A stretch of 64,000 nucleotides of DNA from Halichondria panicea (Eukaryota; Porifera; Demospongiae; Suberitida; Halichondriidae), in assembly GCF_963675165.1 (NCBI RefSeq), contig NC_087384.1, positions 1,696,501-1,760,500 on the forward strand. Direction: 5' to 3'. This document shows positions 30,501 through 57,500 of the stretch, piece after piece. Numbering within the stretch: the first letter of the stretch is position 1; every line of letters begins with the position of its first letter. The translations under genes and the position numbers were made by a program. The notes beneath the pieces are model-generated. The model was not told where the DNA came from. It saw only the letters and a list, made by a program, of their open reading frames with translations, and did not search any database.

Positions 30501-33500
30501 CTTAGCCATCTTGTTGGAGAGCACCTTCCTTGTTTCTGCCGTCGCTTTGAGTCTTAGTACTGTCAAGCATGGCTCTTTTCTCTTTGCTTACTTTCTTGAA
30601 CAAATGAAAAAACTAAAAAACAACTTGAAAAACTGTGCATGCCTGGGGCTGTATGCTAATATTCTATATATCCTACAGCTGTTGACCAATGAGATCAATT
30701 AGTGGTGACATAAGTGTGGTATAAGTATCTATATCTATGGTATAACCTACTGATCATGTACTACATGTACAGTCGGGTCAGTCCCCTCTCTGGTCAGCCA
30801 GTTTCGATGGTCACCTGAAGTGTGTGGAACTTCTAATCGATGCTGGAGCCAATGTTGATATGCAAGCAGAGGTGAGTGTATCTAGCTGTACACATCTCAG
30901 AGATTAGCTAGTCATAGAGTTTCCTTTGTCATGTCCTGGTTGTGTGTCGTGACGCGTATTAACCTAAAACGTGGTCTGTGAGCTGATGTGTGTGTTTACC
31001 TTCTCATCACTCCTTACTTGAATCTGTACAGCATGGAGTTACTGCGCTGCATGTTGCTGCTCAGAATGGTCACTTGAGGGTAGTTGAAGTGTTAATTGCA
31101 GCTATGGCTCAGGTGGACATTCAACGGCAGGTGAGGTTTAATTGCTCATACCACTGTTAGTATTGCATTCTCATAAGAATAGTGATCCTTACCTATCATT
31201 CACTTTTCTATGTACATGTAGGTGAATTATTATAATTGTGCAACTGCATATGGTTTTTGAAAGATAATTACGTGCGTACTATAGATAAAATCTGTGATGA
31301 TATTGTCTCTTATGGATCAGCAAGAATATTCGTTGTGTTCTATGTTATTAGCCTAAATGTCCCTCCGTGAGGAAACGTCTGCATAAACTACCTACTACAC
31401 TAAGAATAGTCCTATTCATTTAAGAGCCTGGAATTTCCGAACGCCCACTAATTATTACTTCCGGTATACTTGCAACGGTGCATTAACTAGTACGTGAAGT
31501 GTATTTGCTCAAACCACGCATGCTCACCCCAAACATGCTGTGCATGCTCCTTGTATATAATAATGTATATATTCACTCTAATACAGGACAACCGGACTGC
31601 TCTCCACGCAGCCAGTAGCAATGGACATGATGAGGTGGTGAGGGTCCTCTTAGCAGCCAAGGCTACAGTCAACACTCAGAACAAGGTCAGTTACAGTAAT
31701 TGATTTCAGAGCCAAAAATTATATGATATAGTGGCGCACCTTTTAGAACCAAAACATTCAGACCAATCCACACTTGCGTTGTTTGTTTTTTGTATAGATA
31801 TGTAGGTCTACGGTTTGGTTTTTGGCCTCTGTGTTTTACATACTCTATCTATTGAGGGCCTAAACAGCAAAAAACCTTGTTTTTAAGCCAGCCGCTTTTG
31901 TTGCTAAAGATATTGTATAATAGTTTCAGCAGCTAGCTAGCCAAACACATTGACGCATGACGTCACATGCAATGATGAACCTCATTAACAACACTACATA
32001 ATCTACACAATCTTGGGTAATGAATAAATTAGCCTCAGTCTCTCTAAATTAACGCTATGTCGACAACTGGGCTTGGTATCTATTGTCAAAGTGATAGTGC
32101 AAATGCACAAGTTCCCCAGAATCTGAGGAATTTGTTCTATACATTAGTTTGTAAGTAAACTAGTTTGTGCACATTACAGATCACCAGGACATGGCGAAGA
32201 GGAAACTGTATGACTGGACGATTGTTTTAGAAACTCTAGCATGGCGAATAGTATATGTATAGCTAGCTCAATCCTCACAACAATTAGTGTAGTTTATAGA
32301 TCTACGGTATACACTTTCGTTTTGGCCACATAATGATAGATCATTAGCACAGTGGGCTAATAGTAGGGTTGGGTTGAATGAGCAAAAAGTCCCCGGGCCT
32401 CTGTGATGATTCGGAACAATAAAATCTGCAATACCTAAATAAATACACATGATCCTTGCCAGAACGCAATAGTTAGATAATTAACATAAATTTCACAATT
32501 TCTATGTATACAGCACATTGTATGGCAGTCAAGACGGGTAATGAGCATGCTGACTATAAATATAATCCTTTGTAGTTTTAGCCACACCCTATAACGCGGA
32601 GTGTTTCACGTAAACATTTTCGTTTCTAATCCCTCTTATTGTTCTACACATATATCTATGGTGTAACATACTACTGATCATGTACTACATGTACAGTTGG
32701 GTCGGTCCCCTCTCTGGGCAGCCAGTCGCAATGGTCACCTGAAGTGTGTGGAACTTCTAATCAATGCTGGAGCCAATGTTGATATGCAAGAAGAGGTGAG
32801 TGTATCTAACTGTACACATCTCAGAGATTAGCTAGTCATAGAGTTTCCTCTGTCATGTCCTGGTTGTCATTCAAAGTGCGATCTATGTGAGACATTTATT
32901 GCGCATCTGTATGTGGTTTTTGAAAAAGACAATAGTAGGGTGTGTTTAATTGCTCATACCCCTGTTAGTATTGTATTCTCATAAGCATTAATTCTGTACC
33001 ATTTTGTTTCTGTGTCCTGGACCTGCGCATGTTATTTGCTTTTAAGAATCGTGATCTTTACCCATCATTCACTTTTCTATGTACATGTAGGTTAATTGCG
33101 CAACTGTATATGGTTTTTTGAAAGGCAATTACGTACGTCCTAGATAAAATCTGTGCTGGTATTGTCTCTTAAATGGATCAGTAAGAATATTCGTTGTGTT
33201 CTATGTTATTAGCCTAAATGTCCCTCCGGGAGGAAACGTCTGCATAAACTACCTACTACACTAAGAATAGTCCTATTCATTTAAGAGCCTGGAATTTCCG
33301 AACGCCCACTAATTATTACTTCCGGTATACTTGCAACGGTGCATTAACTAGTACGTAAAGTGTATTTGCTCAAACCGTGCATGCTCACCCCAAACATGCT
33401 GTGAATGCTCCTTGTATATAATAATGTATATATTCACTCTAATACAGAACAACCTGACACCTCTCCACATAGCCAGTGGCAATGGACATGATGAGGTGGT

Positions 33501-54500: not shown

Positions 54501-57500
54501 TGGACGATTGTTTTAGAAACTCTAGCATGGCGAATAGTATATGTATAGCTAGCTCAATCCTCACAACAATTAGTGTAGTTTATAGATCTACGGTATACAC
54601 TTTCGTTTTGGCCACATAATGATAGATCATTAGCACGGTGGGCTAATAGTAGGGTTGGGTTGAATGAGCAAAAAGTCCCCGGGCCTCTGTGATGATTCGG
54701 AACAATAAAATCTGCAATACCTAAATAAATACACATGATCCTTGCCAGAACGCAATAGTTAGATCGCAACGGGTCAACATTTCTGCTCATTCGCAAAGGC
54801 CAGCAAAATATTCTAGTAGTACGGTAAGCAGGTCGATATATGTTGTATCTGTATTTTACAGCTCCATCTATGGAGTAATTAATAAAGCATGCAGGTATTC
54901 ATCAAATGCATGCGTGTACGTAGGTTAGGGTTAGTAGGCCAATAACTGTAAGGCAATTGCCTTATAAGCATTGACAAGGAGTTCAGTATGCAACTCTAAT
55001 AGACTGCTGTACACAAAAAGCATTCCTCCAGATCTACGTCACAGATACTAGCTGTTGTAACCGCAACTAGCAGGAAAGGCAATGAATAAAGATCAGTAAC
55101 TATATTCATTGCCTTTTTCTAACTGGCAGTTGTAAATGAATAACATTAGTGATAATTATCACAATCATAATTATCATGTTATTCTTTTGTTTACACTGGC
55201 AAACACTTATAAACATACTGCTCATGTACAGTTGGGACAGTCCCCTCTCTGGTCAGCCAGTTACGATGGTCACCTGAAGTGTGTGGAACTTCTAATCGAT
55301 GCTGGAGCCAATGTTGATATGCAAGAAGAGGTGAGTGTATCTATCTGTACACATCTCAGAGATTAGCTAGTCATAAAGTTTCCTCTGTCATGTCGTGAGG
55401 CTTATCAACCTAAAACGTGGTCTGTGAGCTGATGTGTGTGTGTGTGTGTGTTCACCTTCTCATCACTCCTCACTTGACTCTGTACAGACTGGAGCTACTG
55501 CGCTGTACGCAGCTTCTCAGAATGGTCACTTGAGGGTAGTTGAAGTGTTAATTGCAGCTATGGCTCAGGTGGACATGCAAAAGGAGGTGAGGTTTAATTG
55601 CTCATAATTAATAGTATGGCTAAGAGTGCAATATGGGATTAATAGCACGAGTAACAAGCAATGGCAAGGATACTAATTGCATGAGGCGTAGCCAAGTCGT
55701 ATTAACCTTGCCAGCGTATTCGAAAACAACCCGTTATCAAATACAGTGTGCAATTAACAGCGTGCAATTACTTGACAGGTAATTTCACGCTGTCAATGAC
55801 GACGTGCAATTACTTGACCGGATGTGATACGGGAGATTAATTGCTGTACACTCTCCAGTCGCTAATAGCACATCATACAATTATAATACCTAATAAGCTT
55901 TTAGCTCTGCTTTTAAGACTCATAATCCTTACCTATCATTCACAGTGCGCTTCTATGTGATTGCATATCTGTATGTGCATGGTTTATGAAAAAGACAATA
56001 GCAGGGTTCTGCCTACAGTGATCGTTTAGGTAAGCTGCGACCACCACTAGATATTTTCCGACCACCACTTAGCCTTTCCGACCACTGCTTTACATTCTAC
56101 AAGTACTGGCTAGTCCAGTTTAGCTGCTAGTACAGTCTTCGCTTGGTAACCCTTCGCTTACCAGTTTTACTGTCTTGATGTGCCTTATATATATATAGAG
56201 CTAACTATTAATTGAACTCTACTGCGCATGACCAGAACAATTAATTGAAGCTGCATGGCTTTGTTGAGTTCGAGGAGTACTATACTGCAGCTAGCTAGCT
56301 AGCTATACTGTAACTCTGCCTTAAAACAGGGAGTTGGACCACCTGCTAAGGGAAAGACAAGCTAGAGAGTGAGCAACTGGGTGCAGTTAATACTTCCAAG
56401 TACTGATTATGACCCTGTGATGAAGAAATCTTAGTATAGCACCATACTGTACTGATGCAAGTACAACAATGTACATATATAATTATTTCAGCTGTATATA
56501 CTTACATGGCTTACAACAAATGCTGCATGTTCAAATTTGTGTCCCCCTTCCCGTACACACCCCCTGCATGGGCGAATTTTCCCCCATCATTTTTAACCAC
56601 CTCTCAAAATTCCTGGGCAGAACCCTGCAATAGTACGGTGTGGTAAAGATCTGTTATGGCCCGTCTTTGTGTGTGTGTGTGTGTGTGTGTGTGTGTGTGT
56701 GTGTGTGTGTGTGTGTGTGTGTGTGTGTGTGTGTGTGTGTGTGTGTGTGTGTGTGTGTGTGTGTGTGTGTGTGTGTGTGTGTGTGTGTGTGTGTGTGTGT
56801 GTGTGTGTGTGTGTGTGTGTGTGTGTGTGTGTGTGTGTGTGGACTGCTACAGCTGCTGAAAGATCAATGAAGTGCAGGTATGAGGTTCTATAGGCTTCTA
56901 GTAACTGTATTTTAATATCTGCTTGAGTCTCGAGTTATGCTTAGTTTTGCTTACTTGGAATGCCATTGCAGCCTTTTCAGAAGAGTGCGCAGAATAACTT
57001 GTCCACGGAGTGTTGCTACTCTACTTAGTAGTAGCTCTAGCTGCACTAGAACGCTGTAGCTATTGGTAGCTGCAAGGGTGAGAAGAGAGCTGCAAGGCTC
57101 TGCTAATGCAGCCATTTATTTTAGACTTGGACTTTTGGCATTGATCGTTTTTAATAAGAATCATGGTCGATCATTACCCACTCTTTGAGTTTCCTTGTGT
57201 TTCTAGATTTTGCCTTTGCTGCATCAAAATTAAAAATGTTCATCATGGTCATTATAATGATAGCATTTTTAAGCTATTAGTAGCATTATATGTTATGTAG
57301 CTTTGACACCTCCACCGAGGCATCAACACTCACGGTGCTTTCATTGTCCAAGCTCGGTCCCTGGTCGAGTTCTTTCTAAAATAACACTAGGTCTGCAACT
57401 GGGCCTAGTATCTATAGCCAAGGTGATAGTGAAAATACGCAACTGAGTTCCCCAGAATCTGGGGAATTCGTTTTACGCTAGTTTGTAACATTTTACCGAT

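Follow-up and report, generated by a model that had tools for sequence, protein, structure and literature searches.

Why should the exons of an ankyrin array differ so strongly when the introns beside them are nearly identical? The question is raised by a 64,000-bp stretch of the sponge Halichondria panicea (C8:1696501-1760500, on contig C8 of a 131-Mb, 39-contig genome assembly; hereafter the window), for which an earlier note had described 19 ankyrin exons in duplicated segments, with hypervariable surface codons between near-identical introns. A scan for phase 0 exons of the form AG-99 bp-GT recovered all 19 at 30773-55586, each 99 bp long, bounded by AG and GT and in phase 0. They are of three kinds, nine A, two B and eight C, in the order A B C (A C)x7 A B. 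They form the core of a single predicted gene from a family that has been duplicated recently and repeatedly. It encodes a long solenoid of alternating A and C repeats with one repeat per exon, and the divergence pattern is probably due to short-tract exchange between exons together with diversifying selection on a receptor-like family. The observation in the earlier note is confirmed, and its interpretation is partly supported.

Between exons C1 and C3, 14 of the 99 bases are different, corresponding to 11.7 replacement changes and 2.3 silent ones. The 1011-bp introns that follow them differ by 6 substitutions and one 4-bp indel, with 5 substitutions in the first 770 bp, in agreement with the earlier estimate of about 5 in that length. 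Exons C2 and C6 differ at 12 of 99 bases, and the introns on their two sides at 32 of 3565 and 14 of 624 positions; in many other pairs of like exons in the window, one flank is similar and the other unlike. From 2871 like-exon pairs we took disjoint close pairs, in which both 200-bp flanks together were no more than 3% apart (23 A and 20 C pairs). Over these 43 pairs the flanks differ at 147 of 16962 positions (0.87%) and the exons at 203 of 4257 (4.8%). The note had also described the exon changes as nearly all replacement, which holds for C1 and C3 but not in general: the close pairs show 154.8 replacement differences over 3288 sites (pN 4.7%) and 48.2 silent differences over 969 sites (pS 5.0%), both five to six times the flank rate.

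Gene copies compared in register are 0.7-3.0% apart outside the exons, and their array exons differ at 1-12 of 99 bases. At the 5' end, three copies differ from the window at 26/3841, 20/2700 and 11/1523 non-exon positions, and in the same three copies the differences per 99 bases are 2, 2 and 2 in A1, 9, 9 and 9 in B1, and 9, 2 and 2 in C1. The nine differences of B1 from the three other copies lie mostly in one short 3' block that includes silent changes, and therefore look like one exchange tract. At the 3' end, five copies differ by 0.8-3.0% in non-exon sequence, by 4-7 of 99 bases in the last A exon and by 1-12 of 99 in the last B exon. The terminal ankyrin exons beyond the array also vary, T1 at 6-8 of 94 positions in three copies, T2 at 7 and 9 of 107, and T3 at 6 and 5 of 158. 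T1 is 88 bp long and open in all of six gene copies, no two of which are alike, with differences at codons 1, 3, 5, 8, 10, 11, 12 and 15; a one-column T1 gap in two copies was rejected as an alignment effect. The ZU5-like exon downstream hardly changes between the window and the two other gene copies set against it: over 60494-61080 (the exon plus 50 bp of intron) there is 1 difference in 587 positions in one copy and 0 in 587 in the other, and in the latter copy the Death-like stretch shows one replacement in 333 bp.

Across 57 A and 51 C copies, variability is greatest at codons 8, 11, 12, 32, 3, 1 and 23 in A and at codons 3, 11, 32, 8 and 10 in C. All codons named in the earlier note (A 1, 3, 8, 11, 12, 23 and 32; C 3, 8, 10 and 11) were thus recovered, with codon 32 of C in addition. 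Codons 13-18 and 24-29 show very little variation even at silent bases, the largest value being that of the third base of codon 27 in C (pi 0.22). Variable residues were placed through published position lists and not on a structure model. The numbering of designed ankyrin repeat proteins (DARPins) we take to have Gly at position 4, so that exon codon n is position n+2. With this numbering, exon codons 1, 3, 11, 12, 31 and 33 become DARPin positions 3, 5, 13, 14, 33 and 2. Contact positions of DARPins are 2, 3, 5, 13, 14 and 33 (PMC1261162). The correspondence with DARPin-randomised positions proposed in the note is only partial, with 4 of 7 variable codons in A exons (hypergeometric p = 0.011) and 2 of 5 in C exons (p = 0.22). 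Amino-acid entropy at the six positions, fixed beforehand, was higher than at the rest in both kinds (A, 1.18 vs 0.30, permutation p = 0.007; C, 0.99 vs 0.27, p = 0.022).

As in DARPins, codons 1, 3, 11 and 12 vary; unlike in DARPins, codons 31 and 33 are nearly constant here and 8, 10, 23 and 32 vary, which leaves the contact match incomplete. Codon 8 is the second Leu of GxTPLHLA and codon 23, by our offset, is position 29. Both of these are low-frustration positions, position 29 being on the exposed side of helix 2 (PMC4687027). The DARPin list of that source places the hairpin positions one residue further back, and by it codon 32, not codon 1, would be a contact. Codon 10 (Ser/Cys), where the motif has the second of its two conserved Ala, fits a contact reading poorly. 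Judged from sequence, then, variation concentrates at or near known ankyrin contact positions, with a partial match.

Diversifying selection on the recognition face of a recently expanded array, as the earlier note proposed, is supported by a held-out test that scored the codons named there only in copies outside the window (43 distinct A and 36 distinct C exons). Replacement variants seen at least twice filled 20 of 49 opportunities at these codons in A exons and 13 of 28 in C exons. Silent variants filled 7 of 66 and 9 of 66, and replacement variants elsewhere 8 of 171 and 9 of 193. Replacement per opportunity is three to four times the silent rate (A, p = 1.8e-4; C, p = 0.001). Counts per opportunity replaced tree-based codon tests because no single tree is reliable under recombination. 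For the six positions chosen in advance, A exons gave 14 of 42 vs 8 of 66 (p = 0.008), and pairwise comparison of the in-register A1 exons from four genes yields 16 replacement differences and no silent one. At the most variable codons the fourfold third bases are nearly invariant, although three to four amino acids are represented at each (43 of 44 distinct exons agree at codon 8 of A, 36 of 36 at codon 8 of C and 25 of 25 at codon 3 of C), from which it follows that selection acts on the amino acid. A test for a diversity-generating retroelement, which did not extend to the reverse transcriptase or the template repeat, showed no adenine-specific variation, third-position A being kept in 43 of 44 exons at codon 8 of A and 36 of 36 at codon 8 of C. 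The untouched third-position A and G rule out a coding-blind or adenine-targeting mutator as the sole cause. The same invariance makes the targeted diversification that the earlier note had offered as another option less likely in the form of a random mutator or of one aimed at adenines.

Linkage between variable sites is low. Mean r2 in A exons is below 0.09 at every distance; in C exons it falls from 0.48 within 3 bp to 0.30 at 3-9 bp and to 0.03-0.09 at greater distances. All four combinations occur at 80 of 253 site pairs in A and 81 of 136 in C, and codon pairs associated at p < 0.01 number 5 of 91 in A and 9 of 66 in C, where 10-11, 3-4 and 31-32 are the strongest. Of the silent codon differences in close pairs, 13 of 21 in C lie at codons 4 and 31, which adjoin variable codons, and at codon 19; 6 of 19 in A lie at codon 2, the others being scattered. 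Two or more differences are present in 31 of the close pairs, and for 93 of their 117 replacement and 30 of their 39 silent codon differences each of the two states was also seen in further copies. Of the 156 codon differences in close pairs, 39 are multi-nucleotide. The core of A exons with about 15-45 bp of flank forms an island of sameness amid unlike introns, and ACT and ACA exon lineages cut across intron types. From the lost linkage and the reuse of states we infer short-tract exchange between exons; as variable codons reassort largely freely within the exon, exchange of existing states would be a main source of difference. In other duplicated genes, too, gene conversion is known to go along with islands of divergence (PMC3728101).

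Genome-wide, with up to three mismatches, A-exon cores were found 88 times and C-exon cores 163 times, compared with 0 for a reversed control pattern; among the best 150 scored matches per search, similar exons clustered on contigs C8, C10 and C17 and on the small contig C22. Within 228 kb of contigs C8 and C22 (13 stretches picked for carrying matches) lie 57 A, 51 C and 15 B open exons. A blastn search with majority exons gave 125 copies, and of the two beyond the open set, one is truncated where a segment ends and the other has lost 3 bp in frame; all complete exon copies found are open. The 110 neighbouring pairs comprise 46 CA, 38 AC, 15 AB, 7 BC, 2 CC, 1 AA and 1 BA, so that AC, CA, AB and BC make up 106 and like-kind neighbours only 3, and the sole AA pair flanks the C copy left out for its 3-bp loss. 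Such alternation favours a solenoid built of two-repeat units over blocks of alternative exons.

Nine arrays on contig C8 (near 1.04, 1.11, 1.67, 1.73, 2.15, 2.22, 2.31, 2.54 and 7.08 Mb) are followed, about 4-6 kb beyond the last listed exon, by a ZU5 match with 91-100% identity. Eight of the nine also have a Death match about 6-11 kb beyond that exon, with none for the 7.08-Mb array among the matches listed. The ZU5 query (134 amino acids) is 100% identical to the window in at least four other copies. Where the earlier note saw a single array, there is a cluster of several genes, which often have a near-constant ZU5-Death end. Arrays on contig C8 lie on the plus strand at 1.66-1.85 Mb and on the minus strand at 2.04-2.54 Mb, with near-identical members in common, which suggests a large inverted duplication. 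On contig C10, at 5.05-6.86 Mb and also at 4.25-4.37 Mb, many A-like and C-like repeats stand about 160 bp apart; some pairs share an open frame of the same length (e.g. 5674650 and 5674818), so that in part of this related cluster A and C may be combined in a single exon.

Several other explanations were weighed. Diversifying selection on ordinary point mutations alone, with no exchange between exons, would give the excess of replacement over silent variants at the variable codons and the 16 to 0 count in the in-register A1 exons, but silent sites in the exons are raised as much as replacement sites, silent states of C exons travel with the neighbouring variable codons (3-4, 31-32), and the multi-nucleotide differences and the recurrence of most states in other copies also speak against it; we regard it as quite unlikely. 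A programmed diversification limited to the ankyrin exons, germline or somatic, such as templated micro-conversion with selection merely filtering its products, could leave the short exchange tracts and the islands of sameness around A-exon cores. It would also fit the 21 of 43 close pairs with no more than 2 flank substitutions, in which flanks differ at 25 of 8305 positions and exons at 42 of 2079 (32 replacement and 10 silent), with no replacement excess, as an exon-wide process would give. Such a programme is unlikely, since near-fixed fourfold third bases are not produced by a mutator without regard to coding, third-position adenines are spared, and selection on ordinary conversion accounts for the same data. 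A neutral mosaic, with introns homogenised by conversion, exons merely older and surface codons unconstrained, is in keeping with the similar pN and pS of close pairs and with exon lineages that cut across intron types; it is made distinctly improbable by the held-out replacement rate of three to four times the silent rate, by the nearly fixed third bases at the most variable codons and by the open frame of every complete copy found.

The remaining alternatives concern the use and the reality of the array. As all A, B and C exons are 99 bp long and in phase 0, any choice among them keeps the frame, as would suit a Dscam-like array of mutually exclusive exons yielding many isoforms. The exons alternate A-C-A-C, however, with no blocks of one kind, and all of them joined give an unbroken solenoid with an N-cap and terminal repeats, and we consider exclusive splicing rather improbable, though a choice among A-C pairs may still occur. 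Kilobase-long, near-identical segments are hard to assemble, and collapsed or chimeric repeats could in principle mimic such a pattern. An assembly artefact is nonetheless very improbable, because the differences sit in exons and at the same codons across 13 stretches, the complete copies are all open, and overlaps between stretches agree, though these come from one and the same assembly.

A number of results weigh against exchange combined with diversifying selection. The near-equality of pN and pS in close pairs means that the exon as a whole shows no replacement excess; in 7 of the 21 closest pairs the exons are identical, and a few in-register exons hardly differ, B2 differing from the 2308 copy at 1 of 99 bases only. 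Some non-exon 99-bp windows are as divergent as exons, namely beside B1 (from 31181) and around a TG repeat at 56668-56841 (87 TG units, where the gene-copy alignments are least reliable). Non-exon windows reached the divergence of the least divergent exon in 12 of 101, 13 of 68, 40 of 108 and 9 of 161 cases in four comparisons, and the divergent windows near 58600 in one comparison include T2, which was not excluded there. Third bases are less uniform at codons 1 (30 to 5), 3 (5 to 1) and 11 (5 to 2) of A; the six positions fixed beforehand gave 12 of 45 vs 10 of 66 in C exons, which is not significant (p = 0.11); and the p values (Fisher) are rough, related and recombining copies being treated as independent. 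Some of the apparent reassortment could also come from recurrent mutation towards a small set of residues. Among the matches listed, arrays near 1.27, 1.43, 1.84, 2.04 and 2.81 Mb have no nearby ZU5, and the array at 2.42 Mb has a nearby ZU5 match of only 34%. In the window itself, the ZU5-like exon scores 18 bits (Pfam cut-off 21), and the Death-like exon 20.1 bits (cut-off 22.6), or 16.7 bits within the joined C-terminal half.

Under the explanation by exchange and selection, segmental duplication and unequal exchange would alter the number of A-C units and render the introns near-identical, and short-tract exchange, presumably gene conversion, would shuffle a limited palette of residues among exons. 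Selection on amino acids at contact positions would keep and spread variation there, with the repeat framework and the ZU5-like/Death-like signalling half held constant. The ankyrin face would then bind changing partners, and the Death-like domain would signal. The Death-like end, the size of the family, the variation pattern and the analogy with fungal NLRs suggest a receptor role, and we give about an even chance that these genes encode cytoplasmic non-self or danger receptors with ankyrin binding and Death-like signalling. A combinatorial receptor system, in which exon-confined short-tract exchange reshuffles the ankyrin contacts of a constant ZU5-Death gene so that each individual or cell lineage has its own repertoire, has a small chance of being correct.

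The closest known kind of system is that of the fungal NLR repeats, from which the present variant differs by one exon per repeat, by its Ank-ZU5-Death layout and by the lack of a detected NACHT domain. In fungal NLRs such as Podospora nwd/hnwd, the ANK, TPR and WD repeats are near-identical and polymorphic in number, and exchange within and between genes is shown for WD and suggested for ANK and TPR (PMC4986451). Positively selected ANK positions map there, with one exception, to the concave surface and beta-hairpin (PMC4986451). Likeness to the fungal repeats lies in near identity, changing number, exchange, and variation at contact positions (here a partial match). Those proteins carry NACHT or NB-ARC, in contrast to the window gene, with its long introns, two alternating kinds of repeat and ZU5-like plus Death-like half; no NACHT or NB-ARC turned up in those portions of the model that were scanned, which did not include the mid-array region as a whole. 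None of the 102 NACHT matches listed (102 of 265 candidates scored) lies at 1.0-2.9 Mb of contig C8, in a genome-wide search that did not extend to NB-ARC. In PRDM9, selection also acts on contact residues, in one DNA-binding gene with its repeats in one exon. Its zinc-finger array is a further close system (PMC8925151).

Sponge NLR expansions form large families of intracellular receptors, some with Death domains (PMC12909245). Unlike the family described here, they have NACHT, with or without LRR, and ankyrin is mentioned in that source in the form NACHT-Ank (PMC12909245). The assembly holds at least 102 NACHT matches (102 of 265 candidates scored), mainly on contigs C13, C14 and C7, with many of them tandemly clustered, which amounts to a large NLR-like set alongside the ankyrin family. 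Compared with ZU5-Death proteins of the PIDD, UNC5 and ankyrin type, the window gene has ZU5 and Death scores under the Pfam cut-offs, a paralogue with a ZU5 score above its cut-off, and no PDB sequence match by phmmer. Ankyrin-repeat and Death-domain genes responded to microbial cues with up-regulation in two sponges (PMC6208332). Among the matches listed in open-licence literature there is no description of this locus or of an animal hypervariable ankyrin array with one exon per repeat. Concerted evolution with selection at contact sites is already described, for fungal NLR repeats. Here each repeat is an exon between long introns, so that every variable module comes with its own yardstick of background divergence, and the dozens of copies whose flanks diverge by about 1% let exchange, mutation and selection be separated. 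If the genes act in recognition, they would form a NACHT-free, ankyrin-based counterpart of the NLR and lamprey VLR repertoires, and would be concrete candidate recognition genes in an early-branching animal.

The predicted gene lies on the plus strand from 27657 to at least 62513 and comprises an N-cap, the 19 A/B/C repeats, three terminal repeats and ZU5-like and Death-like parts. Its 28 exons, which would be joined in one mRNA, have matching phases and give a model of 1221 amino acids without a stop, with AG/GT at all internal borders; exon 1 and the 3' end are predictions. The putative exon 1 (27657-27737), an open frame, encodes Met and an N-capping half ankyrin repeat (27 amino acids) with a phase 0 donor. 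The array exons, placed by the exon scan and the gene model, are A1 (30773-30871), B1 (31032-31130), C1 (31587-31685), A2 (32697-32795), C2 (33448-33546), A3 (37139-37237), C3 (37889-37987), A4 (39003-39101), C4 (39948-40046), A5 (40800-40898), C5 (41726-41824), A6 (43898-43996), C6 (44624-44722), A7 (48303-48401), C7 (49243-49341), A8 (52937-53035), C8 (53873-53971), A9 (55232-55330) and B2 (55488-55586). Single exons A8, B1 and C8 score 34.8-38.8 bits with the ankyrin Pfam models (PF00023/PF12796; cut-off 21.1), and the first 258 amino acids of the model give an Ank_2 score of 219 bits. An open stretch at 34561-34659 passes the exon scan by chance; it is repeated in introns of several arrays (contig C8, 2049631, 2228875 and 2433400), and these copies are probably remnants of a mobile element.

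The terminal ankyrin exons T1 (57876-57963), T2 (58642-58743) and T3 with a linker (59104-59250) were identified by Pfam, comparison of copies and the gene model, and the next linker exon (59462-59608) by open frame and splice phase only. The ZU5-like exon (60486-61030) is followed by two exons without a Pfam match (61090-61239 and 61288-61474) and by the Death-like exon (62179-62513), past which the gene may continue. A paralogue of the ZU5-like exon at C14:4953472-4953867 is 71% identical and scores 26.5 bits, above the Pfam cut-off. Single-sequence AlphaFold2 models of the ZU5-like exon were too poor for use (predicted local distance difference test score, pLDDT, 34), and that of the Death-like exon was all-helical with low confidence (pLDDT 48). 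The 406-amino-acid C-terminal half had 0 phmmer matches in PDB at E ≤1, by which a fold is not excluded, and NCBIfam gave no match on the ZU5-like and Death-like exons. The 10 other open frames of the window had no Pfam match at E 0.01.

Tandem repeats were observed upstream of the gene, where a 91-bp unit is present in 8.3 copies (20775-21534), and in three C-to-A introns of the array, where a 34-bp repeat occurs at 36020-36138, 47196-47313 and 51822-51939. The only COX1 match of the assembly is a piece at C1:5280527-5280718, a 64-position match with two TGA, which is perhaps a mitochondrial insertion.

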